Assembly: GCA_020845575.1 (NCBI GenBank) | Contig: JADLFL010000040.1 | Location: forward strand, 124,001 to 188,000 | Origin: Acidobacteriota bacterium | GTDB lineage: Bacteria > Acidobacteriota > Vicinamibacteria > Vicinamibacterales > Vicinamibacteraceae | Length of the DNA stretch: 64,000 nucleotides | Reading direction: 5' to 3' | Part shown: one piece after another, positions 1,841-26,146 of the stretch | Numbering within the stretch: the first letter of the stretch is position 1 | Layout: every line of letters starts with the position of its first letter | Notes under the pieces: model-generated | The model's database searches: none | What the model was told of the DNA's origin: nothing | Seen by the model: the letters and a program-made list of their open reading frames with translations, nothing else | Position numbers and translations under genes: made by a program

Positions 1841-3052
1841 TCAGGCTCCTTCGACGGCCGTGAGCGCGGCGTCGAGGCGCGAGATCGCCTCGGCGATCTC
1901 CGCTTCGGTGATCACGTATGGCGGCAGCAGGCGCACCACGCGCTCGGCCGTGCGATTCACGATCAATCCGCGTTCGAGCGCGGCGGGTACCACGGGAGCG
2001 GCGTCGCGGTCGAGCACGAGTCCCTGGATGAGGCCCGCGCCGCGCACGCCGACGACGCTCGGATGCCGATCCGCCAGCGATCGCAACGCGTCGGCGAAAA
2101 TCGGGCCCATGCGCCGCACGTGATCGAGCAGGCCGCCTTCGAGCGCGTCGAGCACCGCGAGCGCCGCACGGCACGCCAGCAGGTTGCCGCCGTACGTCGT
2201 GCCGTGGTCGCCCGCGCTGATCGCATTCGCGACACGCGACGACACGAGTACCGCGCCGACGGGCACGCCGGCGCCGAGTGCCTTGCCGACCGAGATCAGA
2301 TCCGGCGACAGGCCGAGCGTGCGCGAGTGGAACATCTGTCCGGTGCGGCCGAGGCCCGACTGCACCTCGTCGGCGATGTAGAGCGCGCCCGTCTGCTCGC
2401 AGGCGGTGTTGATCGCCGCGACGATCTGCGGCGGCAGCGGACGTACGCCGCCCTCGCCCTGGATCGGCTCGGCGATGATCGCGGCCGTCCTGTCGCTCAC
2501 GGCCGCGAGCAGGTCGGCGGGATCCTCGTTCGACACGAAGCGCACTTCGGGCACCAGGGGCTCGAACGGCGTCCTGTAGTGCTCGTCCCACGTCGTCGAC
2601 AGCGCACCCATCGTCCGGCCGGAGAAGCCACGCTCGAACGCGATGAACTGTGGGCGCGGCGTGCCGGCCGTGTACCAGTACCGTCGCGCGAACTTCAGGC
2701 AGCCTTCGACGGCCTCGGTGCCGCTGTTGCAGAAGAACGCACGCGCGAGGCCCGACGCCTTCGCGAGACGCTCGGCCACCACGCCCTGGTACGGGTGGAA
2801 GAACAGATTCGACGTGTGGACCAGTTCACCGACCTGCTCGCGCACGGCAGCAACCAGTGCGGGATGCGTGTGCCCGAGCACGTTCACCCCGATGCCCGAC
2901 AGCATGTCGAGATAGCGCGTGCCGTCGTCGGCCACGAGCCATACGCCCTCGCCACGCACGAACACCACCGGCTGACGCCTGTACGTCTGGAGGACGTAGG
3001 CGGCTTCAGTGGCCTGGACGGTGGTGGCAGCGGTGGCGGAAGCAGATGACAT
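1841..3052 (-). CDS. argD: Acetylornithine aminotransferase ArgD
   Basis: ArgD is a class-III PLP aminotransferase converting N-acetylglutamate semialdehyde to N-acetylornithine, with glutamate as amino donor. The 403-residue product has family-standard length. Visible motifs are FFCNSGTEAVEG (PLP phosphate binding), IIAEPIQGEGGV, LYIADEVQSGLGRTG (the Asp that contacts the pyridine nitrogen), and VGKALGAGVP with the Schiff-base Lys. The C-terminal half ends in RLLPPYVITEAEI. The start at 3052 gives a short polar leader before AYVLQTYRRQPV. A 59-bp gap separates it from argB upstream, and only 1 nt separates it from the GNAT gene downstream, which suggests one transcript. Confidence 0.95.
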   Translation of the reverse strand: MSSASATAATTVQATEAAYVLQTYRRQPVVFVRGEGVWLVADDGTRYLDMLSGIGVNVLGHTHPALVAAVREQVGELVHTSNLFFHPYQGVVAERLAKASGLARAFFCNSGTEAVEGCLKFARRYWYTAGTPRPQFIAFERGFSGRTMGALSTTWDEHYRTPFEPLVPEVRFVSNEDPADLLAAVSDRTAAIIAEPIQGEGGVRPLPPQIVAAINTACEQTGALYIADEVQSGLGRTGQMFHSRTLGLSPDLISVGKALGAGVPVGAVLVSSRVANAISAGDHGTTYGGNLLACRAALAVLDALEGGLLDHVRRMGPIFADALRSLADRHPSVVGVRGAGLIQGLVLDRDAAPVVPAALERGLIVNRTAERVVRLLPPYVITEAEIAEAISRLDAALTAVEGA

Positions 3053-3111
3053 GGGAACCTCGGGAATGTCAGGATTTCAAGAGTTCAGGATTTCACGATT
3101 GCAGGGAAGGT

Positions 3112-3900
3112 TCAGCGGATGCTGGTGCCGCGGCGTTCGACGATCGACGGGGCCGTCCGGCCGTCGACGATGGTGACGGTGGCGACGCCACGGGCATGAG
3201 CCGTGGTGGCGGCGCGGAGTTTGGCGATCATGCCTGCCGACGCCGTGCCGTCCTGCATCAGCGCGTCGGCCTGCGCCGGCGTCAGCGATGCGATGGTCTG
3301 TCCCGCGCCGTCGAGTACGCCGGCCGTGCCGCCGACGAGCAGCAACTCACGTGCACCGATGGCGGCGGCCACGTGCGCGGCGAGCGTGTCGGCATTCACG
3401 TTCAGCACGCCATCGCCTGCGGACACGCCGAGACTGGCAATCACGGGCACGTAGCCTCCTGCGACCAGGTGCGACACGACGTTGGCGTCGGCCGTGGCGT
3501 CGGGTTCGCCGACCAGTTCGAGATCCACCTGTTCACCGGCGGCGGTCACGTGTGCCGCCACGCGCGTCGATCGCGCGAGCGCCGCATCGACGCCCGTCAG
3601 GCCGACAGCCTTCAGACCGAGACCGACAAGGTGCGCCACGAGCCGCGTGTTGATCGTGCCCGCGAGCACCGCGACCACGGCGTCGAGCGTGCGCGCGTCG
3701 GTGATGCGCAAGCCATCCACCGATCGCTTCGCCACGCCGCGACGCGCGAGCTCCGCGTCGATCTCGCGCCCGCCGCCGTGCACGACCACGAGCGGGCCCT
3801 GCGCGGCGATGGTCACGAGCGCCTCGCCGACCGCGGCGATCCGCTCCGGCGTCTCGACGAGTTCGCCGCCGAACTTCACGAGCACCGGCGCGGTGCTCAC
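3112..3900 (-). CDS. argB: Acetylglutamate kinase ArgB
   Basis: ArgB phosphorylates N-acetylglutamate, the second step of arginine synthesis, and belongs to the amino-acid-kinase fold. The 262-residue chain begins with VLVKFGGELVE (ATP phosphate-binding KxGG), followed by VVVHGGGREID and the substrate-binding region. A later NVNADTLAAHVA segment and the GTASAGMIAKLRAA segment match the Mn/MK-containing nucleotide-binding C-lobe of the family. The N-terminal helix that allows hexamer formation and arginine feedback inhibition in some ArgB enzymes is absent, so feedback control may sit elsewhere. It overlaps the 3' end of argC by 4 nt. Confidence 0.94.
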   Translation of the reverse strand: MSTAPVLVKFGGELVETPERIAAVGEALVTIAAQGPLVVVHGGGREIDAELARRGVAKRSVDGLRITDARTLDAVVAVLAGTINTRLVAHLVGLGLKAVGLTGVDAALARSTRVAAHVTAAGEQVDLELVGEPDATADANVVSHLVAGGYVPVIASLGVSAGDGVLNVNADTLAAHVAAAIGARELLLVGGTAGVLDGAGQTIASLTPAQADALMQDGTASAGMIAKLRAATTAHARGVATVTIVDGRTAPSIVERRGTSIR

Positions 3901-4898
3901 AGCAGCCCTTCCTCGATCGGCAGGCCGTACATCAGGTTGAACTGCTGGACGGCCTGACCGGCCGCGCCCTTCAGCAGGTTGTCGAGCACAGCCACGACGA
4001 TCAGGCGGCCCGTCACTTCATCCACCTTCCAGCCGATGTCGCAGAAGTTCGTGTGCGCGACGTGCTTGATCTCGGGCAGTCGATCGCCGGTGAGCCGCAC
4101 GAAGAACGCGTCGGCGTACGCGGCGGTCATCGCCTCCTGCACCTGTGCGGCCGTGACGCCCGGCGTCAACCGCGCATACGTCGTCGACAGGATGCCGCGA
4201 TCGAGGGGCACGAGGTGCGGCGTGAACGTGACGCGCAGGCCGAGCGCCTGTTCCATCTCCGGCGTGTGCCTGTGACCGAACAGCGCGTACGCCGCCACGC
4301 TGCCGTGGTTCTCCGAGAAATGCGTGCGCTCGCTCGCACCCTTGCCGGCCCCGGAGACGCCGGACTTGGCGTCGACGATGACGTCGCCCTGCAGCAGGTT
4401 CGCCTGCGTGAGCGGCAGGAGTGACAACAGGGCGGCAGTCGGGTAGCAGCCAGGGCAGGACACCAGTCGCGCCGACGGCAGGAGCGCCGCGTCGAACTCC
4501 GGCAGGCTGTACACGGTGCCGTCGGGCATCGGGTCCGGCGTGGACGGATAGAACCGCGACCGCAGGGCCGGATCCTTCAGGCGGAAGGCACCCGACATGT
4601 CGATCACGCGATGCCCGCGCGCCAGCAGTTCGGTCGCGCTCGTAGCCGCGAAGGCTTCCGGGGTTCCGAGGAACACGACGTCGCAGCCTGCGAGCGCGTC
4701 GGGGCTGTAAGCCGTGACCTGTCCGTCCCAGATGCGCGCCAGGCCCGGCAGGGTGCGGGGCTGATCGGCTTGACTCGATCCGAGCGCGACCTTCAGGTCG
4801 GCCGCCGGGTGTCTGGCGAGGAGTCGCACGAGTTCCTGGCCGCCGTATCCCGTGGCGCCCACCACTCCGACTCCGATGCGTTGCGTCCCCTCAGTCAT
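3897..4898 (-). CDS. argC: N-acetyl-gamma-glutamyl-phosphate reductase ArgC
   Basis: ArgC performs the NADPH-dependent reduction of N-acetylglutamyl phosphate to the semialdehyde. The 333-residue product has the N-terminal dinucleotide loop VGVVGATGYGGQELVRLL and the active-site cysteine motif SCPGCYPTA. The C-terminal half carries HRHTPEMEQ and VTFTPHLVPLDRGILST, which are typical of type-1 ArgC. I chose the ATG at 4898 because an ARG-box-like palindrome lies directly before it. An in-frame ATG at 4925 would add nine residues and would put the operator inside the gene. It is the first gene of the minus-strand biosynthetic run and divergent from argR. Confidence 0.94.
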   Translation of the reverse strand: MTEGTQRIGVGVVGATGYGGQELVRLLARHPAADLKVALGSSQADQPRTLPGLARIWDGQVTAYSPDALAGCDVVFLGTPEAFAATSATELLARGHRVIDMSGAFRLKDPALRSRFYPSTPDPMPDGTVYSLPEFDAALLPSARLVSCPGCYPTAALLSLLPLTQANLLQGDVIVDAKSGVSGAGKGASERTHFSENHGSVAAYALFGHRHTPEMEQALGLRVTFTPHLVPLDRGILSTTYARLTPGVTAAQVQEAMTAAYADAFFVRLTGDRLPEIKHVAHTNFCDIGWKVDEVTGRLIVVAVLDNLLKGAAGQAVQQFNLMYGLPIEEGLL

Positions 4899-9640: not shown

Positions 9641-10360
9641 CTACGTCGCGACGCGCCACTGTTCGGTGCGCAGATGCTCGGCGGGCACGCCGAGCTGCGA
9701 CAACTGGTGTGACAGGTCGTCGACCATCGACGGCGGTCCGCACAGGAACGACAACGGCGTGGCCGGCGTCGTGAATCGACGCAGGAGCGCGGCGTCGATG
9801 CGCCCCACCCGGCCGTGCCAGTCGGTCAGCGCGTGGCGGGTCACCGTGACGATGGCATCGCCGCCATGCGTGTCGTGCCACTGCGCGAGCTCGTCGGCGT
9901 AGGCCACGTCGGCCAACTCCTTCACCGAATAAATCAGATGCCGTGGCGCGCGATGGCCCCGTGCGCGGGCTTCACGTGCGAGCGACCGCAGCGGCGCGAG
10001 ACCCGTGCCGCCGGCGATGAGCAGCATCGGCGTGTCCGGCAGCACCTCGGGCAGCAGGAACTCCCCGAACGGTCCTTCGAAGTCGATGCGCGCACCGACG
10101 GTCACGCCATCGAGATGCCTCCCGAGGCCGCCGCCTGGCTGCGTGCGTACGAGGAACTCGATCGTGCCTTCGGTTGACGTGTCTGACGGTGCTGACGCGA
10201 TCGAGTACGGACGCCTGTCGCGCTGGCCGTGCAGGCCGATCGCCGCGGCCTGTCCTGCCTCGTAAGCGAACGGGATGCCGTCGAGATCGAGCACGAGCCG
10301 CCGCGCGCCCGGCGGCGTGTCGACGAGCGCGCGAACCCTGAGCGTGAGCGCGTCAGGCAC
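9641..10360 (-). CDS. FAD/NAD(P)-binding ferredoxin-reductase-type oxidoreductase
   Basis: The 239-residue product has the two domains of the ferredoxin-NADP reductase superfamily. An FAD-binding barrel carries RRPYSIAS (isoalloxazine/phosphate contact, residues about 49-56). A nucleotide-binding domain carries LLIAGGTGLAPLRS, and the terminal part contains FLCGPPSMVDDL. No [2Fe-2S] cysteine cluster is attached, so an external electron partner is needed. The natural substrate cannot be deduced. Its start overlaps the 3' end of the upstream gene by 8 nt, so the two are probably translated from one message. It converges with fabI across a 55-bp gap. Confidence 0.85.
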   Translation of the reverse strand: MPDALTLRVRALVDTPPGARRLVLDLDGIPFAYEAGQAAAIGLHGQRDRRPYSIASAPSDTSTEGTIEFLVRTQPGGGLGRHLDGVTVGARIDFEGPFGEFLLPEVLPDTPMLLIAGGTGLAPLRSLAREARARGHRAPRHLIYSVKELADVAYADELAQWHDTHGGDAIVTVTRHALTDWHGRVGRIDAALLRRFTTPATPLSFLCGPPSMVDDLSHQLSQLGVPAEHLRTEQWRVAT

Positions 10361-10850
10361 CTGGCCTCTGCTTGTAGTAGTCGGTCTGACAGGCCTCGAT
10401 GAGCGCCTTCATGCGGAGCGCATCCTTCTTCCGATGGCCGGCGCAGCGGATCGGATTGACACCGCCGGTGGTCTCGATGAACACGTCCGAGAAGAACATG
10501 TTGGTGTCGATCCGTACCGACGCGACGTGCGCCATGTGGATCGAGTGTTCGAGTCTGCCCACCCACTGCGGCGTGTAGTGCACCACGCTGGTCGGCGTGA
10601 TGTGCACCTGCACGGGGAGCAGCCGGTTGCCCGCGCTCAGCCGGCTTGCGCGGAACACGTCTCCCGCGGCAAACGGCCGGCCCTTGCGCCAGATGACGAA
10701 GGCGCCGACGGCCGCCACGCCCACCAGGCACCCCACCAGCATTGCCACGAGTCCCGACGCCGTCAGCACCCCGGCAGGATACCGCAGCATCGCCGGCAGA
10801 TCGCCGCGCATGCTCCTGCATTCCCGCCGTCCGGTTTCGACGTCCGGCAT
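10353..10850 (-). CDS. Membrane-anchored PH-like hypothetical protein
   Basis: The 165-residue product has one long hydrophobic segment (residues about 26-54, GVLTASGLVAMLVGCLVGVA and onward). A soluble domain of about 100 residues follows, and its hydrophobic alternation (VQVHITPTSVVHYTP, VASVRIDTNMFFSDVFIET) resembles bacterial pleckstrin-homology/GRAM-like domains. The C-terminal part is helical and basic. In-frame ATGs at 10811 and 10790 are alternative starts. I kept the first because a GGAG lies about 10 nt upstream. Its function is unknown. The coupling to the flavin reductase suggests a shared membrane-associated redox role, which is inference. Confidence 0.6.
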   Translation of the reverse strand: MPDVETGRRECRSMRGDLPAMLRYPAGVLTASGLVAMLVGCLVGVAAVGAFVIWRKGRPFAAGDVFRASRLSAGNRLLPVQVHITPTSVVHYTPQWVGRLEHSIHMAHVASVRIDTNMFFSDVFIETTGGVNPIRCAGHRKKDALRMKALIEACQTDYYKQRPGA

Positions 10851-10907
10851 TCGGTACCGCTCCGTTCTTCCGTTCCTGCCCTCTCGTGCGTATCACCGGG
10901 GGGCGTG

Positions 10908-13900
10908 ATGACCGAGCGACGAATGGGGCGATGGTGGATGACGGCCGGAGCATGCGGCCTGCTGGCGGTGGGGTCGTGGGGTGGACGTGCGATGGCGCCA
11001 GGGGCGCTGCGTGCCTCGTCGGATGTGGAGACGCGTCCCGCGGCCACGGTCGGGAGCGGGCGCGCGCTGCCGACGCAGGAGGCGCTGATGCAGATGGCTG
11101 CCGCGCCGCTGCACTTCGAACGCAACCGTGGCCAGGCACCTGCTGACGCGACATTCGTCGCGCGCGGTGCCGGATACACCGTGCTGTTGTCGGGCTCGGC
11201 GACGACCCTCCTGCTCGAGACTCGAGACGCCGGTTCTCCGGACGACGGACGTTCGCGCTCCACCGTCGTGCGCACGCGACTGGTCGGGGCCGACACACCC
11301 GCCTCGGTCGACGGTGAGGCGGTACTTCCCGGTACGGTCAACTACTTCCGCGGCAACGATCCCGCGCGGTGGCAGCGCGACGTCCCGACCTTCGAACGCG
11401 TCCGCGCCGAGGCCGTGTATCCCGGAATCGACGTCGTGTACTACGGCAACCAGCGGCAGTTGCAGTATGACTTCCGCCTGGCCGCGGGTGCGCGTCCCGA
11501 CCGGATCGGGCTGGCATTCGACGGTGTCGACGATATGTCGATCGACGCCAGCGGCGATCTGGTGCTGCGCGTTGGCGAGCAGGAACTGCGCCAGGAGCAG
11601 CCGTTCACGTACCAGGACGGTCCAGGCGGCCGCGTCGAAATCGCAAGCCGATTCGTGATGACCGGGCCCAACCAGATCGGGTTCGAGGTCGGCGACTACG
11701 ACAGGCATCTGCCTCTGGTCATCGGTCCCGTCGTCACGTACTCCAGTTACTTCGGCGGCGACAGCGAGGAGATCCCGTTCGACGTGGCTGTTGGCCCTGA
11801 CGGCAGCGTGTACGTCACGGGTGTCACGAGCGATCTCGCAGCGTTTCCCACCGTCAACGCGTTCCAGCCGACGAGCGGCTCGCAACCCGACGCGTTCGTG
11901 ACCAGATTCCAGCCCAACGGCAACTCGCTCGCGATCGTGTACTCGACGTACCTCGGAGGGAGCGGAATCGAGAACGTCGTCAGTGGCGTTGGTCACACGG
12001 GTGACGTGGCGGTCGACGCCGCAGGGACGGCGCATGTCACCGGCGTCACGCGGTCCGCCGACTTCCCGGTGACACCAGGCGCGCACGACACGACGTTCGG
12101 CGGCCCCAACCAGTCCGACGCGTTCTACACACGTATCAGCAGCACGGGACAACTGCTGTACTCAACGTACGTCGGAGGTATTGCCACCGACGCGGGGTTC
12201 GGCGTGGCACTCGGCCCGGGCGGCGTCGCGTATGTCGTCGGCTACACGGCATCGGATGCCGTCACCGAACAGGCGCCGGTCACCAGCAACGCCTACGACC
12301 AGATCATGGACGGAGGCAGCGATGCGTTCGTCGCCAGGTTCACGGCCGCCGGTGTCCTCGACTACTTCACCTACCTCGGCGGCACCGGAGGCGAAGCGTC
12401 GTTCTACACAGGGGCCATCGCCGTGGACCAGGCTGGCTACGTCTACGTCGCTACCGACAGCAGCAGTTCGAACAACTACCTGCCGGCCAACGGGTTCGAC
12501 ACCACGGTCGGCAATCTGTCTGCCGGCGGATTCTTCGTCACGCTCGATACGACGCGCATCGGCGCCGCACAGTTGCTCTACTCCACCTACATCACCGGCA
12601 CGAACGGCCAGCTCTGGCCCTATGGGGTGGCGGTCAACAGCGCGGGCATCGCCTACATCGTCGGCGAGACGAGCACGAGCATCGGCTTCCCGATCAAGAA
12701 CGCCGTGCAGCCCACTTACGTCGGTGGCAATCGCGATGGCTGGCTGATGAAGATCGATACGACGAAGACGGGCACCGATTCGCTCCTGTTCTCGACGTAT
12801 CTCGGCGGCGATCAATCGGACGTCGCGCACGACGTTGCCATCGACCACCTCGGACGCGCCGTCGTCGCCGGGACGACGTTCTCGAGCGGAACCGGTGTCG
12901 TGGTCAAGTTCCCGCTCGTCCAGCAGGTGGCCAGTTGTCCGACGTTCGTGCGCATCTCGCCCTTCGTCACGATCTTCAAGGCCGATGGATCCGGGTACGA
13001 CCTGTCGTCGTGCTACGTCGACAGCTATGTGTTCTACGGCGTCGCGACAGGACCCAATGGCGAAATCTGGCTCGTCGGCAACACCAACGACAACCTCACC
13101 AACCCGCCGACGACGGGCGGCGTGCCCATGGTGAACGCCGAGCAGGGGACGTACGGGCGCGACTTCCCCGGTTCCGGCGGCGACATGGACGCGCTCGTCG
13201 TCCGCCTGTCGCCATCCACGGATCTCGCGATTGCCAAGGCCGCTGCGCCCAATCCCGTCCTGCCAGGCGGCACGCTCACATACACGCTCACGGTCACCAA
13301 CGCGGGCGGCGAGACGGCCTCGAGCGTCCAGGTCGCCGATACGTTGCCCGCGACGACAACGTATGCGTCGTGCGTGGCCACCAACGGCGGCGTGTGCGGC
13401 GGCAGCGGCAATGCCAGGACGGTCACCTACGCGACGTTGGCCGCCGGCGCGTCGTCCACCATCACGATCGCGGCGACCGTCAACGCCAGCGTCGGCGCCG
13501 GCGCGACGATCAGCAACACGGCGACGGTGAGCAGTGCGATGCATGACCCGGTGCTGGCCAACAACACGGCGACGGCTGAGGTCTCGACACCCACCCTCGA
13601 TCCCGCGGGAGACGCCGATGGCGACGGGCTGACCAACGAGTTCGAGACGCGGTACGGCCTGAATCCGTTCTCCGGCGGTTCGGGCCATGGTCCCGGTGAC
13701 GACCCTGATGGCGACGGCCGCACCAACACCCAGGAACAGGCAGACGGCACGCATCCACGCGGGTTCGTGATCACCTACCTGGCCGAAGGCGCGACCGGGC
13801 CCTTCTTCGATACACGGCTGGCCATCGCCAATCCGACCTCGTCGCCGGCGCTCGTGCTGACGCGCTTCCAGAAAGGCGACGGGACGACGATTCGTGACTA

Positions 13901-15107
13901 CCGCATCGTGCCGGCGATGCAGCGCGCGACGATTGACGTGGAGACGCTGGCGGGGCTCGACGCGGCGGAGTTCTCGACGCTGATCGAAGCCGACGTCCAG
14001 GTGGTGGCCGACCGCACCATGACGTGGGACGACACGGGGTACGGCAGCCACGCCGAGCGCGGCATCCTGACGCGGACGGCGACGAAGTGGTATTTCGCCG
14101 AAGGCGCCACGTTCGACAGGTTCAACCTGTTCTACCTGATTCAGAACCCGAATACGCAGGCCGCGCAGGTGCGCGTCACCTATCTCCTGCCGTCCGGCAA
14201 TCCGCTCGTCAAGGACTACGTGGTGGCACCGCAGAGCCGATTCAACATCTGGGTGGACAGCGAAGGCCGGAACGATCCGGCGCTCGCGCCACTGGCCAGT
14301 GCTGAGCTGTCGGCGATCGTCGAGTCCACCAACGGCGTCCCGATCATCGCCGAACGCGCGATGTATCTCGATCAACCCGGCCGCCCGCTCGGCGCAGGGC
14401 ATGAGAGTGCCGGCATCACCGCCCCATCCACGCAGTGGTTCCTGGCCGAAGGCGCCACCGGGAGCTACTTCGACATGTTCATCCTGATCGCCAACCCGGA
14501 ACCCACCGACGCGACAGTGCAGGCCGACTTCCTGCTCGGTACCGGCCAGGTCCTCACGAAGACGTACACCGTGGCGGGCAGGAGCCGGTTCAACATCTGG
14601 GTCGATCGCGAGGATCCGCTGCTTGCCGACGCGGCGCTGTCCACGCGCATCACGTCCACCAACGGCGTGCCGCTCATCGTCGAGCGCGCGATGTGGTGGC
14701 CTGGCCCGACGTCGGCGACGTGGCAGGAGGCACACAACAGTCCCGGAGAGACCACGACGGGCACGCGATGGGCGATGGCTGAAGGTGAAGTCGGCGGCGC
14801 ACGCAAGACGGCGACCTACGTGCTGATCGCCAACACGTCACCCTTCGCGGGCATGGCTCGCGCCACGGTGCTGTTCGAGGACGGCAGCGCGCCGATCGCG
14901 AAGGTCTTCCCGCTCGTCGCCAACAGCCGGGCGAACGTGACGCCGGCGGTGGACTTCCCGGAAACGGCAGGCAAGCGCTTCGGCATGCTGATCGAGAGCA
15001 TCGGCGCGACACCGGCACAGATCGTTGTCGAGCGCGCCATGTATTCGGATGCCGGCGGTGTGCGCTGGGCAGCGGGCACGAACGCGCTGGCGACCAAACT
15101 GCAATAG
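10908..15107 (+). CDS. Secreted SBBP-repeat / DUF11 surface protein with C-terminal AEG repeats
   Basis: This is a 1399-residue exported protein. An N-terminal signal/TM segment is followed at about residues 65-290 by a DUF7948-like beta domain (LHFERNRGQAPADATFVARG). SBBP beta-propeller-like repeats span about 290-760, each with a YSTYLGG-type strand and a PDGSVYVTGVT-type strand. A DUF11 Ig-like domain follows (about 770-890, PGGTLTYTLTVTNAGG). A Ca-binding thrombospondin-type-3-like stretch comes next (about 900-945, DADGDGLTNEFETRYG and DPDGDGRTNTQE). Four copies of an AEG repeat (AEGATG...F..LIANP) run from about 955 to the end. No sortase, PEP-CTERM or T9SS signal is visible at the terminus. 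An adhesive or matrix role is likely by family. The open frame extends upstream to 10275, but that part is shadow of the reverse-strand gene. Confidence 0.85.
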   Translation: MTERRMGRWWMTAGACGLLAVGSWGGRAMAPGALRASSDVETRPAATVGSGRALPTQEALMQMAAAPLHFERNRGQAPADATFVARGAGYTVLLSGSATTLLLETRDAGSPDDGRSRSTVVRTRLVGADTPASVDGEAVLPGTVNYFRGNDPARWQRDVPTFERVRAEAVYPGIDVVYYGNQRQLQYDFRLAAGARPDRIGLAFDGVDDMSIDASGDLVLRVGEQELRQEQPFTYQDGPGGRVEIASRFVMTGPNQIGFEVGDYDRHLPLVIGPVVTYSSYFGGDSEEIPFDVAVGPDGSVYVTGVTSDLAAFPTVNAFQPTSGSQPDAFVTRFQPNGNSLAIVYSTYLGGSGIENVVSGVGHTGDVAVDAAGTAHVTGVTRSADFPVTPGAHDTTFGGPNQSDAFYTRISSTGQLLYSTYVGGIATDAGFGVALGPGGVAYVVGYTASDAVTEQAPVTSNAYDQIMDGGSDAFVARFTAAGVLDYFTYLGGTGGEASFYTGAIAVDQAGYVYVATDSSSSNNYLPANGFDTTVGNLSAGGFFVTLDTTRIGAAQLLYSTYITGTNGQLWPYGVAVNSAGIAYIVGETSTSIGFPIKNAVQPTYVGGNRDGWLMKIDTTKTGTDSLLFSTYLGGDQSDVAHDVAIDHLGRAVVAGTTFSSGTGVVVKFPLVQQVASCPTFVRISPFVTIFKADGSGYDLSSCYVDSYVFYGVATGPNGEIWLVGNTNDNLTNPPTTGGVPMVNAEQGTYGRDFPGSGGDMDALVVRLSPSTDLAIAKAAAPNPVLPGGTLTYTLTVTNAGGETASSVQVADTLPATTTYASCVATNGGVCGGSGNARTVTYATLAAGASSTITIAATVNASVGAGATISNTATVSSAMHDPVLANNTATAEVSTPTLDPAGDADGDGLTNEFETRYGLNPFSGGSGHGPGDDPDGDGRTNTQEQADGTHPRGFVITYLAEGATGPFFDTRLAIANPTSSPALVLTRFQKGDGTTIRDYRIVPAMQRATIDVETLAGLDAAEFSTLIEADVQVVADRTMTWDDTGYGSHAERGILTRTATKWYFAEGATFDRFNLFYLIQNPNTQAAQVRVTYLLPSGNPLVKDYVVAPQSRFNIWVDSEGRNDPALAPLASAELSAIVESTNGVPIIAERAMYLDQPGRPLGAGHESAGITAPSTQWFLAEGATGSYFDMFILIANPEPTDATVQADFLLGTGQVLTKTYTVAGRSRFNIWVDREDPLLADAALSTRITSTNGVPLIVERAMWWPGPTSATWQEAHNSPGETTTGTRWAMAEGEVGGARKTATYVLIANTSPFAGMARATVLFEDGSAPIAKVFPLVANSRANVTPAVDFPETAGKRFGMLIESIGATPAQIVVERAMYSDAGGVRWAAGTNALATKLQ

Positions 15108-15113
15108 CACGCG

Positions 15114-15148
15114 GGAGAGCCTGACGCGACGTGTCAGTCGGGCTCTCC
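15114..15148. terminator. Hairpin between convergent genes
   Basis: The arms GGAGAGCC and GGCTCTCC, with an inner CTGAC/GTCAG pairing, form a strong stem between the surface-protein stop and the CHAT-gene stop, and it runs into the last codons of the CHAT gene. There is no clear T-tract, so a terminator role is inferred from position. Confidence 0.45.
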
Positions 15149-17746
15149 GATCAGCGCGAAGCCGGCCCAGAACACGGGATGCTCGGGAATGACCACGACG
15201 CCAGCCGGCGTCGTGGCGTGCACGCGGCCGGCGCGCAGATCGCGCAGCAGACCGAGTTGCGCGTTTCGCAGGGCGCGGCTCTTCGAGGCGCCCGCGAGCC
15301 AGTGCCGATAGAACGCAGGCAGCAGCCGATTCGTCGGTTGGTCGGCCACGTCCCAGAGGCTGGCGACGACCGAAGCGCTTCCCGCGTAGATGAAGGCGCG
15401 TGCGAACGTCGAGATGCCGTCGCCCGGCATGAGGCCGCCTGCCGACCGGCATGCGCTCAGCACGACGAGGTCGGCGTGGAGATCGAGAGCGTAGACCTCC
15501 CGTGCCGTGAGGAGGCCGTTGGCGCCATCGCCTGGCGCTGACGAGGGTGCAAGCGCGAGATAGGACTGGAGCGGATCCTGCTCGCTCACGACGGCGTGCG
15601 TTGCGAAGTGCAGCACGGCCTTGCCGGCGACGGTGTCGCGGAGTGCGGCTTCGGTCGCTTCATGCGCCGCAAGGACGGTGGCCCGACCGCCGGGCATCAC
15701 GCGCGCGATCGTCGCGACCTCGTGGCGCGCGCCGGGCAAACGCGGCAGCGGGCGATCGAGCGTCGGCAGGCGAGGAAGGACGGGGTCGGCGACGAGCAGG
15801 GCCGCACCCGTCCGTGCATCATGCCGTCTCTGACGTGCGGTGAAAGGCAGCACCGCGCCGGCCGGCGCGTAGTGGATGGCGTGGTCTTCCAGCAGATAGC
15901 GGCCGTTGGGACCCTGCAACGCCGCGAAGCTGACACCCAGCAACGGCCCGTGCGCCACGATCGTCAACAACGATCCCGGCCTGCGCGGCAGCACGTCCCG
16001 CACCGGCCGCACGAGCAGATCGTAGAGCTTCGGTCCTGAGTGCCGTGTCGACGCCGATCCTGAGTCGAAGGGGTCGAAGGCCTGTTGCACCAGTGCGCGC
16101 AGCCGTGCGCGGAGTATCGGTACGCGGCGGACGTGTACCGCGCCATCTCTGGTCACCACCCAGATGAACAGTTCGTCGTCGCTCACCCAGTAGACGAGGA
16201 ACGTGGACTGCAGGCGCGCGGCCGCTGCCACGAAGTCGCTCACGGCAGCGGGATCCGGCGTCGCCACGTGGTCGATGGTCGTGTGGTCGGCGGAGGCGTC
16301 GCGGCCGGCGAGCAGGTCGAGCAGCGCACGCGATCTGGCGAGCTCGGCGGTTCCGAGTGACTCACGCGCCAGCCCCTGCTGCACCTGCAAGGCAATCGCC
16401 TCGCTGTATACGCTCGACTGCACGCGACTGAAGTCCTGCCTGAAGGCATCGGTCGGCACGAGGCGTGTCCGGATGTCTTCGAGCCGCGCGAGCGCCGCCT
16501 GCACGTCGGCGAGGGCGGCCGGGACGTTGCCCAGTGCGGCATGCGCACCAGCACGTTGCTGCAAGGCTTCGGGACAGGTATCGGGCCGCGACGCGCACGC
16601 CTCCACGGCGCGCGTCGCCGCGTCGAGGGCCTCGCGCGGCCTGGCCATCTTCCGATAGGCGAAGGACAGACTCGTGTAGCGCTCGGCGGGATAGACGTCG
16701 ACACCGTTGGCGATGACGCGCTCCAGCGCCGCCGCGCCGTCCGCGAACTGTCCCTGGCTCAGCAGCAGGCCGGCGAGATTCGCCCTGACGAGATCCTGCA
16801 CACGCAGCGAGCTCGATTGCTCCGCGAGCACCAGCGCCTGGTCGTAGGCGTCGCGCGCCCCGCGCAGGTCGCCAACACGCTGCCGGGCGGTGGCGACCGC
16901 ATTGAGGCTCTGGATCAGCGCGAACGGGGCGCCGGCCGCCCGGTGCCGCGCGAGCGCTTCGAGCTGGAACTTCAGCGCCTCGTCGAGCCGACCGTGCGCG
17001 CGATAGACCCGGCCGATGCTGTTGTAGACGGTGCCGAGCGCAACGCCGTCGGTGGTGGCCGACAGCACGGTCTCGGCTCGCAGCAGCGCCTCGAGCGATT
17101 CTTCGTACTGTCCCTGCGTGAACAGGTGATCGCCAAGGCTCTGCCACGCGCGTCCTTCGAGGACACGATCCCCAACAGCACGTGCGTCATCGACCACGCG
17201 GGCGAGCAGCGGACGTTTCTCCGCGAGCGTGAGTGGAGCCACCCTGATCAGTTGCAGCGTCGCCACCGCCCGCCCGCGACGATCCTGCGCGGCGGTGAAG
17301 GCGGTCACCGCGCGTTCGGCGCCCTCACGGGCCTCGGCGCGCAGACCCGACACGTACGCGGCCACGCCCGCGAGATGACTGGCGCGCCCGATGCCGCGAT
17401 CGTCGGCGAGGCGCTCGTAGATCGTCAGGGCCAGCAGCGCTTCCTCGCGCGCCGCCGCATACTGCGTCCTGGCATGGAAGATCTCCGCGATCGCGACGCG
17501 CGCGTCGGCTTCTTCGCGCGCAAGTGCGAGGGCGATGGCCCGTGCGCGAGCGGCTTCCAGCAGCTTGAGTGCCGCGTCGCGCGAACCGTCACGCAGCAGT
17601 CGCCCCGCCGTGTCGAGTTGCTCACGAATCGCTGCCGCATCCGGCGTGTTGTCCACCTGCATCTGCGGCGCGGCGCGGACCCATGGGGTCGCGGCCATCG
17701 TCACGATGAGACACAGCGAGGCGACGATCGCGTGCCGGGCGGGCAT
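15134..17746 (-). CDS. TPR-CHAT domain protein (caspase-like protease)
   Basis: The 870-residue product has a signal peptide (VASLCLIVTMAATPWVRA), a long helical TPR array (about 40-480) and a C-terminal CHAT domain (about 560-870). The catalytic dyad is visible as HFATHA (about residue 714) and LSACRSAGG (about 765). They are followed by ASLWDVADQPT and HPVFWAGFALIG, the usual CHAT C-terminus. CHAT proteases cut partner proteins after a sensor is triggered. The signal peptide places this one in the periplasm. It is the last gene of an ECF-sigma/TPR-membrane/CHAT operon with an 8-bp gap. Its substrate is unknown. Confidence 0.88.
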   Translation of the reverse strand: MPARHAIVASLCLIVTMAATPWVRAAPQMQVDNTPDAAAIREQLDTAGRLLRDGSRDAALKLLEAARARAIALALAREEADARVAIAEIFHARTQYAAAREEALLALTIYERLADDRGIGRASHLAGVAAYVSGLRAEAREGAERAVTAFTAAQDRRGRAVATLQLIRVAPLTLAEKRPLLARVVDDARAVGDRVLEGRAWQSLGDHLFTQGQYEESLEALLRAETVLSATTDGVALGTVYNSIGRVYRAHGRLDEALKFQLEALARHRAAGAPFALIQSLNAVATARQRVGDLRGARDAYDQALVLAEQSSSLRVQDLVRANLAGLLLSQGQFADGAAALERVIANGVDVYPAERYTSLSFAYRKMARPREALDAATRAVEACASRPDTCPEALQQRAGAHAALGNVPAALADVQAALARLEDIRTRLVPTDAFRQDFSRVQSSVYSEAIALQVQQGLARESLGTAELARSRALLDLLAGRDASADHTTIDHVATPDPAAVSDFVAAAARLQSTFLVYWVSDDELFIWVVTRDGAVHVRRVPILRARLRALVQQAFDPFDSGSASTRHSGPKLYDLLVRPVRDVLPRRPGSLLTIVAHGPLLGVSFAALQGPNGRYLLEDHAIHYAPAGAVLPFTARQRRHDARTGAALLVADPVLPRLPTLDRPLPRLPGARHEVATIARVMPGGRATVLAAHEATEAALRDTVAGKAVLHFATHAVVSEQDPLQSYLALAPSSAPGDGANGLLTAREVYALDLHADLVVLSACRSAGGLMPGDGISTFARAFIYAGSASVVASLWDVADQPTNRLLPAFYRHWLAGASKSRALRNAQLGLLRDLRAGRVHATTPAGVVVIPEHPVFWAGFALIGEPD

Positions 17747-17754
17747 GTGATGTA

Positions 17755-18699
17755 TCAGCGATGACTGACGGGTTCGTCTGTGAGCCTGTCGAGCGCGTCG
17801 CAGGCGCGCGCGGTCCGCGGCGCGCGTCGATCGCAGAGGGCCTCGAAACGCGTCCGCGCATCAGCGACGTGTCCTGCCCGGTGCTCGGCGATCGCGCGAT
17901 AGAACGCCACATCGTCGGCGAACGTGGGATCGACGACTGCCTCGGCGGCAGTGAATGAGGCGATCGCCCCGCGCGCATCGTCCAGGAACAGGCGGGAGAC
18001 GCCCTGATAGAAGAGGACTTCGATCGAACGCGGATACCGGGGCTCGAGTGCCGTGAGGGCTGCGTTTGCGGCGACGTAGTCGTCTCGTCGGTACGCATCG
18101 AGTCCTGCCGCGAGATCGGTCAGCAGCGGGTTGTCGGCGGCAGCACCACGCCATGTCAATGCCGTGAGGCCGAGACGCACCGGTGGCTTGTCCAGCGGCA
18201 GCACGACCGGCGGGGGAGTGGAAGCCCGCGTGGCATCCGCGTTCGAGGCCGGAGATGTCGACGGTCGGGTCTCTTCGAGCCTGGCAACAGGCGTGTCACC
18301 GCTATCGCCGACGATCACCCACGCGACCAGCACGGCAGCGGCCAGTGCCGGTGCAAGGACCAGCGGCATGAGCCAGCGGCGTCGTGGCTCGACGCGGGAG
18401 GGTGACTGCGATGTGGTTTCGGCCTGGATTCGCGCGAGCAGACGTCGGGCGGCGTCCGCATCGAGCGGAGCGTCGGTTTCACCGAGGCCGTCCGCCAGTG
18501 CACGGCTCCATGGACTCGCCGACAGATGGTCGTCGAGCGCGGCCTGCAGGTCGTCTGGCAGTACACCGGCTTTCGCGGCGCGCAGCAGGTCGATCGGCGG
18601 GTCGTCGCGGTGCCGCGCCCGGATGACGTCGATTTCGTCCTGCGCATCAGCGAGGAACTCGCGCTCCTCGGGGGTCCATCCGTCTCGGGGGAGGCTCAT
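17755..18699 (-). CDS. Single-pass membrane TPR protein, candidate anti-sigma partner
   Basis: This is a 314-residue protein. A cytoplasmic N-terminal helical region (about 1-120, with a repeated acidic-helix pattern) is followed by a TM helix (WLMPLVLAPALAAAVLVAWV, about 125-145). A Ser/Thr/Pro-rich linker and a periplasmic TPR-like domain follow (about 205-300, with AFYRAIAEHRAGHVADARTR-like helices). It starts at an ATGA overlap with the ECF sigma gene. The place and topology are those of an anti-sigma factor, but no HxxxCxxC zinc motif is present. A longer open frame upstream reads through the sigma gene out of frame and is not used. Confidence 0.75.
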   Translation of the reverse strand: MSLPRDGWTPEEREFLADAQDEIDVIRARHRDDPPIDLLRAAKAGVLPDDLQAALDDHLSASPWSRALADGLGETDAPLDADAARRLLARIQAETTSQSPSRVEPRRRWLMPLVLAPALAAAVLVAWVIVGDSGDTPVARLEETRPSTSPASNADATRASTPPPVVLPLDKPPVRLGLTALTWRGAAADNPLLTDLAAGLDAYRRDDYVAANAALTALEPRYPRSIEVLFYQGVSRLFLDDARGAIASFTAAEAVVDPTFADDVAFYRAIAEHRAGHVADARTRFEALCDRRAPRTARACDALDRLTDEPVSHR

Positions 18700-19157
18700 G
18701 TGTCCACCACTCCGTTCGCCCTCCGCAGCAGCGTCAGCGCGTACTGCAGGTATCCCTTCACCTGGTTCTCCGTGAGTCCCGTCTGCGCCGCGATCTCGGC
18801 GCGCGTCATGCCGTGCGCGTAGCGCAGCATGAGGCACGTCCGGTGGACCGGCTTGAGGTCGGCGTCCTCGAGCACCCACTGCTCGAGCGGCGGCGCGGCG
18901 GTGGGCAGGCGCGCGATCGACTCGACGTACCGCTGTTCCACCATGTGCCGGCGCCATCGATCCCTGGCGCGATTGCGGACGACGGCGAACAGCCACGTGG
19001 GCAGCTGCGGCTGGTCGATGGCGTCGAGGTTCCGGTGAAGCGCCATGAATGCCTCGGCGGTCAGATCCTCGGCGACGTCCCGCTTCCCTGACACGCTCAT
19101 GGCGAACCGGAACACCGCCTGCACGTGCTGGTGATACAGCTCCTCGAAAGTCGCCAT
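18696..19157 (-). CDS. ECF-type RNA polymerase sigma factor
   Basis: The 153-residue protein has region 2 (YHQHVQAVFRFAMSVSGKRD, then AEDLTAEAFMALHRN and LPTWLFAVVRNRARDRWRRH). It also has region 4 (CLMLRYAHGMTRAEIAAQTG, then TENQVKGYLQYALTLLRR). Length and domain order are those of a minimal ECF sigma factor. It heads a three-gene operon (sigma, membrane TPR protein, CHAT protease) and presumably recognises its own promoter upstream of 19157. I could not identify the -35/-10 pair. Confidence 0.9.
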   Translation of the reverse strand: MATFEELYHQHVQAVFRFAMSVSGKRDVAEDLTAEAFMALHRNLDAIDQPQLPTWLFAVVRNRARDRWRRHMVEQRYVESIARLPTAAPPLEQWVLEDADLKPVHRTCLMLRYAHGMTRAEIAAQTGLTENQVKGYLQYALTLLRRANGVVDT

Positions 19158-24792: not shown

Positions 24793-24814
24793 GCCAGGGG
24801 TTTCAACCCCTGGC
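24793..24814 (-). repeat. Inverted repeat at the queC stop
   Basis: GCCAGGGGTTTC then the complementary GAAACCCCTGGC-type arm make a near-perfect 9-bp palindromic stem. The TGA stop of queC is formed in this element, and its last residues (VARG) are encoded by it. Confidence 0.75.
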
Positions 24815-25456
24815 TACGTACTCCGTCGGATCTGATCCAATCGCTTCGACGAAGGCGTCGTGGCGCTCGCGGCATTTGCTGCACGCGCCGCAGTGCAGGT
24901 CGCCGACCGGATTCATGCACGACAGCGTGAGCGCCATCGGCGCGCCGACCACCTGACCCCGACGGATCACGTCGGCCTTCGTCCATTCGCGGTACGGCGT
25001 TTCGATCGCGATGCGGTGCGCGAGACCGATCGACAGCGCCGTTGCCATGGCGTCATAGAACGCAGGCGTCGCATCGGGAAATGGGTTGCCACCGAGTGGC
25101 GCCAGCGCGATGCGGGAGATGCCGTTGATCGCGCAGAAGACGGCGGTCTTGCCGAGCAGCACGATGTTCCGTCCCACGAGGTACACGTCCTCGTCGGGCG
25201 TCTCCCAGGCCGGCGGCGTCCCAGCGATCGACCAGTGCCCGGGGGCGTACACGTCGCGCACGGATGCGTCGATCAGGTGGAGCGGATCGAGCTGCGCCGC
25301 CGCGGGAAACGCCGCGAGCGCGCGTGCGAGCATCGCCCGTTCGCCAGCCTCCCAGGCGAGGCCGGACGCCACGTAGATCGGCTGTACGCGGGCGTGCGCC
25401 GTGAGATCCGCGGCAAGGACGATGCTGTCGAGGCCGCCGGAACACAACACGGCCAC
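24803..25456 (-). CDS. queC: 7-cyano-7-deazaguanine synthase QueC-like
   Basis: QueC makes preQ0 from carboxydeazaguanine with ATP and ammonia and is a PP-loop ATPase. The 217-residue product has the loop VAVLCSGGLDSIVLAADL at its start. APLGGNPFPDATPAFYDAMA lies in the middle, and ETPYREWTKADVI follows. The zinc-binding cysteine set LSCMNPVGDLHCGACSKCRERHDAF is at the end. I chose the GTG at 25456, which makes the start like other QueC. A GTG at 25495 adds 13 residues but would overlap the divergent HAD gene by 15 nt. QueD, QueE and FolE2 are not in the window, so it may work with enzymes encoded elsewhere or belong to another deazapurine pathway. Confidence 0.82.
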   Translation of the reverse strand: MAVLCSGGLDSIVLAADLTAHARVQPIYVASGLAWEAGERAMLARALAAFPAAAQLDPLHLIDASVRDVYAPGHWSIAGTPPAWETPDEDVYLVGRNIVLLGKTAVFCAINGISRIALAPLGGNPFPDATPAFYDAMATALSIGLAHRIAIETPYREWTKADVIRRGQVVGAPMALTLSCMNPVGDLHCGACSKCRERHDAFVEAIGSDPTEYVARG

Positions 25457-25468
25457 GCGATCGGCGTG

Positions 25469-25474
25469 TAAGGT
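25469..25474 (+). promoter_or_regulatory. -10-like TAAGGT, 6 nt before GTG start of the HAD gene
   Basis: TAAGGT is followed by GGTGGG and then the GTG at 25481. GGTGGG is not a clear Shine-Dalgarno sequence at this distance. The element lies only about 13 bp from the divergent queC start. Confidence 0.4.
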
Positions 25475-25480
25475 GGTGGG

Positions 25481-26146
25481 GTGTTCTACAGGCACTTCGT
25501 CTTCGACCTCGATGGCACGTTGATCGACTCGCGTCAGGATCTCGTGGATGCCGCCAACGCGATGCTCGCCACCTATGATGCACCGCCCCTCCCGTCGCAG
25601 GCCGTCGTGGCGATGGTGGGCGAGGGCGCCCGCATGCTTGTGACGCGTGCGCTGGCCGCGGCGCGCGTCGACGCCGACGTCGACGAGGCGCTCGCCCGGT
25701 TCATCGACGCCTATGACGCGCGGCTCACGGCCACCACGCACCTCTACGACGGCGTGGCCGAGACGTTGCGCCGGCTCCACGCCGGAGCCCACGTGTCGGT
25801 GCTCACCAACAAGCCGCAGCGGCCGACCGACGCCATCCTGGCATCGTTGGGCGTCGCGCCGTTCGTCCATGCGGCTATCGGTGGCGATTCGTCGTACGGC
25901 AGGAAGCCCGCGCCCGACGCCCTGCGCGCGCTGATCGATCGCGCCGGCGCGACTGTGGAAGAGACCCTGATGGTCGGCGACTCGTGGGTGGACGTGGCGA
26001 CCGCCGTGGCCGCCGGTGTCGACGCGTGTCTGGTCACTTACGGGTTCGGTTTCGCCGCCGTCGACGCCGAGCACCGCGCGCGGGCCCGCTGGTCCATCGA
26101 TGCGATCGACAGCCTGCTCCCGCTGATGTCGGCGCATCAGCGCTGA
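25481..26146 (+). CDS. gph: HAD-family phosphatase, phosphoglycolate phosphatase-like
   Basis: The 221-residue product has HAD motif I FDLDGTLIDS (about residues 8-17), motif II VLTNKPQRP, motif III lysine in GRKPAPDAL and motif IV MVGDSWVDVATA. The helical cap after motif I fits the Gph/PGPase subclass that removes 2-phosphoglycolate. Exact substrate cannot be told from sequence. The gene ends at 26146 and the reverse gene's stop begins at 26147, so the two stops abut as TGATCA. Confidence 0.88.
   Translation: MFYRHFVFDLDGTLIDSRQDLVDAANAMLATYDAPPLPSQAVVAMVGEGARMLVTRALAAARVDADVDEALARFIDAYDARLTATTHLYDGVAETLRRLHAGAHVSVLTNKPQRPTDAILASLGVAPFVHAAIGGDSSYGRKPAPDALRALIDRAGATVEETLMVGDSWVDVATAVAAGVDACLVTYGFGFAAVDAEHRARARWSIDAIDSLLPLMSAHQR

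Follow-up and report, generated by a model that had tools for sequence, protein, structure and literature searches.

Three consecutive genes for a sigma factor, a membrane protein and a caspase-like protein are found in a 64,000-nucleotide stretch of DNA (the window) from an Acidobacteriota bacterium of the family Vicinamibacteraceae (assembly GCA_020845575.1, contig JADLFL010000040.1, positions 124,001 to 188,000; the genome is 4.57 Mb in 78 contigs). We judge the chances to be about even that they form one signalling unit, a split version of the DdvA/DdvS system of Myxococcus xanthus, in which a membrane anti-sigma factor has an exported CHAT protein as its own, dedicated site-1 protease. 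All three genes lie on the minus strand: an extracytoplasmic function (ECF) sigma factor at 18696-19157, the membrane protein at 17755-18699, and a protein with tetratricopeptide repeats (TPR) and a CHAT domain at 15134-17746. The sigma gene overlaps the membrane protein gene by 4 bp (ATGA), and the CHAT gene follows after a gap of 8 bp; this spacing suggests a single operon. The initial annotation of the window had these coordinates and this layout right. It also proposed that the CHAT protease could cut the membrane TPR protein in the periplasm and so release the sigma factor, an interpretation which is partly supported; it is right in kind, and it is better grounded now.

The cytoplasmic N-domain of the anti-sigma factor, which is homologous to known anti-sigma domains, would hold the ECF sigma of the window. 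Upon a cue, the TPR-CHAT protein would act in the periplasm, docking on the periplasmic part of the anti-sigma factor. It would then cut that protein, possibly at the conserved Arg184, and a membrane M50 protease would make the second cut which frees the sigma factor. By analogy with DdvA and the type III-E craspase, cleavage of the anti-sigma by CHAT appears to be the best mechanism; DdvA, which bears both parts in one chain, offers a structural precedent for the link. The RseA/DegS/RseP system likewise has a membrane anti-sigma with a periplasmic part, and M50 protease genes are present in the window's genome. There, however, the site-1 protease is of the serine protease or signal peptidase type, whereas that of the window would be a caspase-fold cysteine protease.

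The association of CHAT, anti-sigma and sigma genes is real, and the trio recurs in many lineages of the Acidobacteriota. Of the 149 genomes in the order, 146 have matches to the anti-sigma profile at 0.001, most of them partial; 11 of the 149 match the window protein itself. The phylum search used a profile of 12 rows, picked for being CHAT-linked, and 33 of 396 genomes match it at <=1e-15, in 43 places. Fourteen of these places had already been covered. The other 29, together with 18 earlier loci and the window, give 48 anti-sigma loci; in 34 of them the stretch examined includes a CHAT gene (22 of the 29 phylum loci, 11 of the 18 earlier loci, and the window). Four of the 14 others (L016, L063, L084, L089) are on contigs which stop near the anti-sigma gene, and a CHAT gene is possible on the missing side. 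Gene order varies among them. Sigma, anti-sigma and CHAT genes are co-directional in that order in L050-L055, L061, L062, L064, L066 and L072; the CHAT gene is convergent in L001, L014, L017, L018, L079 and L085, divergent upstream in L067, L075, L086 and L088, and upstream in the same direction in L065 and L083.

Because the rows of the phylum profile had been chosen as CHAT-linked, a reverse scan seeded by CHAT was made. It covered one genome per species (84,980 species); 113 stretches matched, 103 were confirmed, and the best 80 were kept. A sigma gene is present in 40 of the 80 loci, and both sigma and anti-sigma genes in 37 (some matches are weak). A second profile adds sigma genes in 8 further loci, one of which (L134) may be due to chance, bringing the count to 48/80; the sigma density of the window's own genome predicts about 0.065 per locus. 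That genome has 22 sigma genes detected by Pfam, and two of its five CHAT genes have one of them within 6 kb; it is at these two loci that a full-length TPR anti-sigma is present. By record title, the sigma-bearing loci include members of Vicinamibacteria, Thermoanaerobaculia, Holophagales, Aminicenantes, Blastocatellia (by the second profile) and Sulfidibacter, and outside the phylum to Ignavibacteriales. Some record titles look mis-binned. The locus titled 'Cyanobacteria' (L091) encodes proteins as in G030, which belongs to the same order as the window; the anti-sigmas of L113 (Chloroflexi) and L115 (Gemmatimonadetes), both of 227 aa, have identical starts and equal scores. Chance neighbourhood was considered and rejected: the linkage holds through rearranged gene orders and from both search directions.

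The relationship to DdvA is seen in both structure and sequence. The CHAT protein model (mean predicted local distance difference test score (pLDDT) 86.4, predicted template modelling score 0.80) has two DdvA entries as its best Foldseek matches in the PDB (3.0e-18 and 6.7e-18); separase and Csx29 come after them. On VIA re-alignment, DdvA aligns over 615-624 residues (model 92-867 to DdvA 290-991), with a root-mean-square deviation (rmsd) of 4.8-4.9, Z of 24.1-24.5 and 18% identity. Csx29-type chains align over 506-584 residues (rmsd 6.7-7.9, Z 23-27), the separase structures 5fby, 5fc2 and 5fc3 over 305-311 (rmsd 3.2-3.4, Z 25-26), and human separase over 745-746 (rmsd ~10, Z 23-24). If Z alone is considered, DdvA is equalled or surpassed by TPR proteins, Csx29 and separase; what distinguishes it is the aligned length at moderate rmsd. 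The CHAT-domain sequence profile matches DdvA at 2.5e-9, across both catalytic motifs, and Csx29 at only 0.015. Since the anti-sigma profile separately matches the N-domain of DdvA, the anti-sigma and CHAT proteins of the window map to the two ends of that protein.

DdvA/DdvS (PDB 8rot, 8rw5, 8rlz; Sci Adv 2024 eadp1053) and the window system have in common a class-I anti-sigma domain, a membrane anchor, a TPR-CHAT region and a partner ECF sigma, which in the window is adjacent with the 4-bp overlap. DdvA, however, is a single chain, whereas the window has two chains, encoded by two genes with stop codons and the 8-bp gap between the coding regions, and its anti-sigma has a small TPR domain of its own. 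The trio looks like DdvA in two pieces, the second of which bears a signal peptide; alternatively, DdvA may be the fused form of a trio of this kind. The TPR-CHAT region of DdvA is reportedly periplasmic, with an incomplete active site that faces the dimer partner. Both His and Cys are visible in the aligned DdvA sequence.

The TPR-CHAT protein of the window (870 aa) matches the Pfam CHAT model (PF12770) at 4.4e-66 and several TPR models. The initial annotation had recorded an intact His/Cys pair, and indeed the dyad consists of His717 (codon at 15596..15598) and Cys766 (15449..15451), both invariant in a 12-row alignment. Among 36 CHAT sequences, the His is present in 36 and the Cys in 35; the exception, L078, ends at a contig edge. 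The conserved pair predicts that the protein is catalytic. Export is likewise predicted: a putative signal peptide covers residues ~1-26 (17669..17746), in line with the earlier description, a call which comes from hydropathy, with no trained predictor. A hydrophobic 12-mer (mean at least 1.6) is found within the first 180 open-frame residues of 33 of the 36 sequences. One of the 36, L052 (= L096), is mis-started and shows an N-terminal hydrophobic segment from its proper start; L013 (= L103) and the sigma-less L003 have none. Some of the N-terminal segments look lipobox-like by eye. Hydropathy would place the CHAT protein, with its export-type segment, in the same compartment as the C-domain of the anti-sigma, which lies beyond one transmembrane segment.

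Homology of its N-domain indicates that the membrane protein (314 aa) is a class-I anti-sigma factor. Pfam gives a weak TPR_6 match (0.094) alone, and the NCBIfam 'antisigma' model matches residues 45-140 at 3.1e-5, which falls well short of the curated cut-off of that model. Fourteen sequences, the window protein included, were built into a profile and compared with the PDB. Its N-domain matches DdvA (8rlz, 3.8e-4), ChrR (2q1z, 8.4e-4) and 3hug (0.028), and its C-domain matches TPR proteins. These N-domain matches bear out the earlier view of the protein as an anti-sigma factor; it would consist of a cytoplasmic class-I domain, one transmembrane segment (residues 113-131, 18307..18363; mean hydropathy 2.56 across 19 residues), a Pro-rich linker and a periplasmic TPR domain (residues 191-307, 17779..18129). 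The zinc motif was also correctly described as missing. His58 is kept, and Ser62 and Ser65 take the place of both Cys (18505..18528), so that the window copy lacks the HxxxCxxC of zinc-binding anti-sigma factors. The intact motif lies upstream of the transmembrane segment in 7/7 of the first homologues (from the own and related genomes) and is found in 50 of 56 trios; the six without it are the window, its two nearest orthologues (L090 and L091), and L077, L083 and L120. Zinc loss is reported to be common among class-I anti-sigmas (PMC7406223).

The predicted model of the anti-sigma has N-terminal helices, pLDDT <50 in most of residues 100-145 (transmembrane segment and linker) and a confident TPR block (pLDDT 90-98 over 191-310). 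The latter superposes on the TPR domain of YbgF with Z 17.0 and rmsd 1.4 over 118 aligned residues. When the model is compared with PDB structures, the matches listed are TPR proteins, and the comparison thus does not address the fold of the N-domain. The linker between membrane and TPR domain (~132-178) is variable in sequence, and its first half is of low confidence in the model. It is followed by a conserved T-x-R-G element (residues 180-185, 18145..18162), in a loop immediately ahead of the first TPR helix. Of 37 TPR-type homologues, 36 carry Arg184 and the remaining one has a gap there; Gly is next in 29. This residue is a candidate for cutting or docking. Separase, gingipain R and metacaspases cleave after basic residues, which makes Arg plausible as P1.

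The sigma factor (153 aa) contains sigma2 and sigma4 only, with matches to Sigma70_r2 (6.6e-14) and Sigma70_r4_2 (1.2e-8) in Pfam. Similar short sigmas head the trios in L050/L091, L051, L053/L102 and L090. The initial annotation saw the trio as a possible feedback device, and this part lacks sequence support: no promoter element common to sigma and CHAT genes was found. At four loci with a convergent CHAT gene (L001, L014, L017, L018), one TATAGT per locus lies 8-11 nt upstream of the CHAT start (4/4), and none is found before the sigma gene. Its position suggests a leaderless CHAT promoter at these loci. Sigma-70-like hexamers before the sigma gene beat nearly all shuffles in L093, where 1/300 shuffles is as good. 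They are marginal in L090 (18/300), L091 (29/300) and L092 (42/300), and at chance level in the window (298 of 300), L051 (107), L102 (273), L014 (300) and L018 (299). Autoregulation has a precedent in DdvS, which the ddvS promoter is reported to require (PMC4374960).

Several results weigh against anti-sigma cleavage by a dedicated CHAT protease. There is no promoter sign that the sigma factor controls the CHAT gene, as the search for shared elements described above indicates. Arg184 may be structural, because two residues of the TPR domain, Ala299 (36/37) and Gly233 (35/37), are conserved to the same degree, and because the same Arg motif is found in TPR-type anti-sigmas with no CHAT neighbour (L015, L056-L058). 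The TPR-type profile fails to match the periplasmic domain of 19 of the 56 trios, so TPR-TPR docking cannot be general. The CHAT protein is thus the more constant of the two, and it is the sensor that varies; several of the 19 domains look beta-rich by eye. Tree-distance co-variation across the 56 trios gives a partial rho of 0.14 between the periplasmic part of the anti-sigma and the CHAT domain (16/500 permutations as high), and 0.00 against the TPR of the CHAT protein (243/500 permutations). The cytoplasmic anti-sigma domain gives 0.09 and 0.07, values which the periplasmic part hardly exceeds. These correlations are weak and uninformative, and they lend no support to tight co-evolution.

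Two side observations concern the TPR anti-sigmas that lack a CHAT neighbour. In L015 and L058 the sigma and anti-sigma pair is followed by a TonB-type outer-membrane protein in place of CHAT. In L056, L057 and L060 the pair is convergent to an alkaline phosphatase-family gene.

An alternative substrate is the last point on the adverse side, and it gives rise to the strongest of the rival explanations. The CHAT protein could be an output of the regulon, a processing enzyme which matures or cuts an adjacent secreted repeat-domain protein, while the anti-sigma senses its cue in some other way; we consider this unlikely, though it deserves serious weight. In the window, a large secreted protein (DUF7948, SBBP, DUF11) is encoded on the plus strand at 10275..15107, its true start probably being downstream of 10275, and it ends in a 443-aa repeat domain (13776-15104). 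This domain has 29 matches in the genome, merged to 22 loci, and sits C-terminally on many large secreted proteins. For three of the five CHAT genes of the genome, a repeat-domain locus is no more than 6 kb away (binomial 0.0025), and in L098, L101 and L102 CHAT is followed on its own strand by a repeat-domain protein. At another place in the same genome (L002, 1-7501, C12), the order is CHAT, sigma-like, anti-sigma-like and secreted repeat protein, so that the repeat protein stands behind the pair on one strand with CHAT; the first two genes overlap. The sigma-like (3918-4505) and anti-sigma-like (3052-3921) proteins are both divergent and have no Pfam match at 0.05, and profiles grown from them find relatives beside other CHAT genes. 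The secreted protein may be a substrate of the protease or an output of the regulon. However, its gene in the window is convergent to CHAT and not co-directional; of the 80 loci found from the CHAT side, just four (L098, L101, L102, L103) have the repeat domain, as against 48 with a sigma gene; and DdvA fuses CHAT with an anti-sigma domain, not with a secreted protein.

A second possibility is that the CHAT protein is a non-proteolytic co-sensor, which would bind the anti-sigma in the periplasm, alter the state of that protein and supply half of a DdvA-like receptor. DdvA does combine receptor and CHAT in one structure, and the anti-sigma and CHAT proteins are both TPR proteins, but a catalytic dyad kept in 36/36 (His) and 35/36 (Cys) sequences predicts an active enzyme, which makes this role quite improbable. 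Least probable by far is that the genes are merely neighbours with no shared pathway and that CHAT has an unrelated periplasmic role, as the TonB-type and alkaline phosphatase neighbours and the 14 CHAT-less loci might suggest, for the linkage survives changes of gene order in both search directions.

Cleavage of the anti-sigma by CHAT also has relatives among described systems. The type III-E CASP/craspase system (Csx29, Csx30, CASP-sigma) shares with the window a TPR-CHAT protease, a sigma inhibitor and an ECF sigma, and the CHAT model aligns with the craspase structure 8d9f at Z 26.6 and rmsd 7.4 over 584 residues. Csx29 cleaves Csx30, an inhibitor of CASP-sigma, and in the authors' model this cleavage relieves the sigma factor (PMC10028731). 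CASP is RNA-triggered and tied to Cas7-11, whereas the window has a predicted exported CHAT protein and a membrane inhibitor. No CRISPR protein or Cas7-11 was matched by Pfam among the neighbours scanned, a scan which included no array search. No chain named Csx30 is among the best 60 of the 70 PDB matches (E up to 1) of the anti-sigma profile.

Two further likenesses lie in the gene neighbourhood. ECF54 sigmas have CHAT genes nearby; this sigma-CHAT link has already been noted and proteolytic control proposed (PMC8999054). The ECF54 proposal concerns sigmas which have no anti-sigma, whereas the window has one. In TRADD-N/EACC2 neighbourhoods a caspase-domain protein, a TPR (DUF1822) protein and an ECF sigma are reported together, and a proteolytic switch has been proposed (PMC8195603). 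Here the likeness is one of gene content; the caspase and sensor domains are of other families, and the sections of that report considered here describe no membrane anti-sigma. No paper describing a trio with an exported CHAT protein and a membrane anti-sigma came up in literature searches limited to open-licence papers. What appears to be new is the two-piece form, the predicted export and the intact dyad; the kind itself is known from DdvA, with craspase as an analogue and the ECF54-CHAT link noted before.

It is conceivable, at somewhat less than an even chance, that the window represents a phylum-wide class of switches in which a separate, exported caspase-fold site-1 protease cuts a membrane anti-sigma close to the outer face of the membrane, at an Arg which hardly varies, with DdvA as the one-piece form and craspase as a cousin. 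If so, the CHAT-anti-sigma-sigma trio would represent a signalling unit of bacteria in general and not a CRISPR curiosity. If CHAT cuts the anti-sigma, a caspase-like protease would be the periplasmic first cutter of regulated proteolysis in many Acidobacteriota lineages, and DdvA and craspase, both published, would be joined into one evolutionary family. A direct and easy test with purified parts would be possible.

Other genes of the window were considered as well. The divergent HupE/UreJ gene was rejected as a member of the unit: tblastn matches are confined to the window and to L005 and L030, two copies of this place in its own genome. Ten window proteins were compared with PADLOC as possible parts of a defence system, such as the CBASS-CRISPR island which DdvA is reported to control; just a generic TPR match and QueC/QatC matches were obtained, which lend no support to a defence island. 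The protein with the QatC match, encoded at 24806-26137, is of the QueC type and has an N-terminal extension of ~230 aa.

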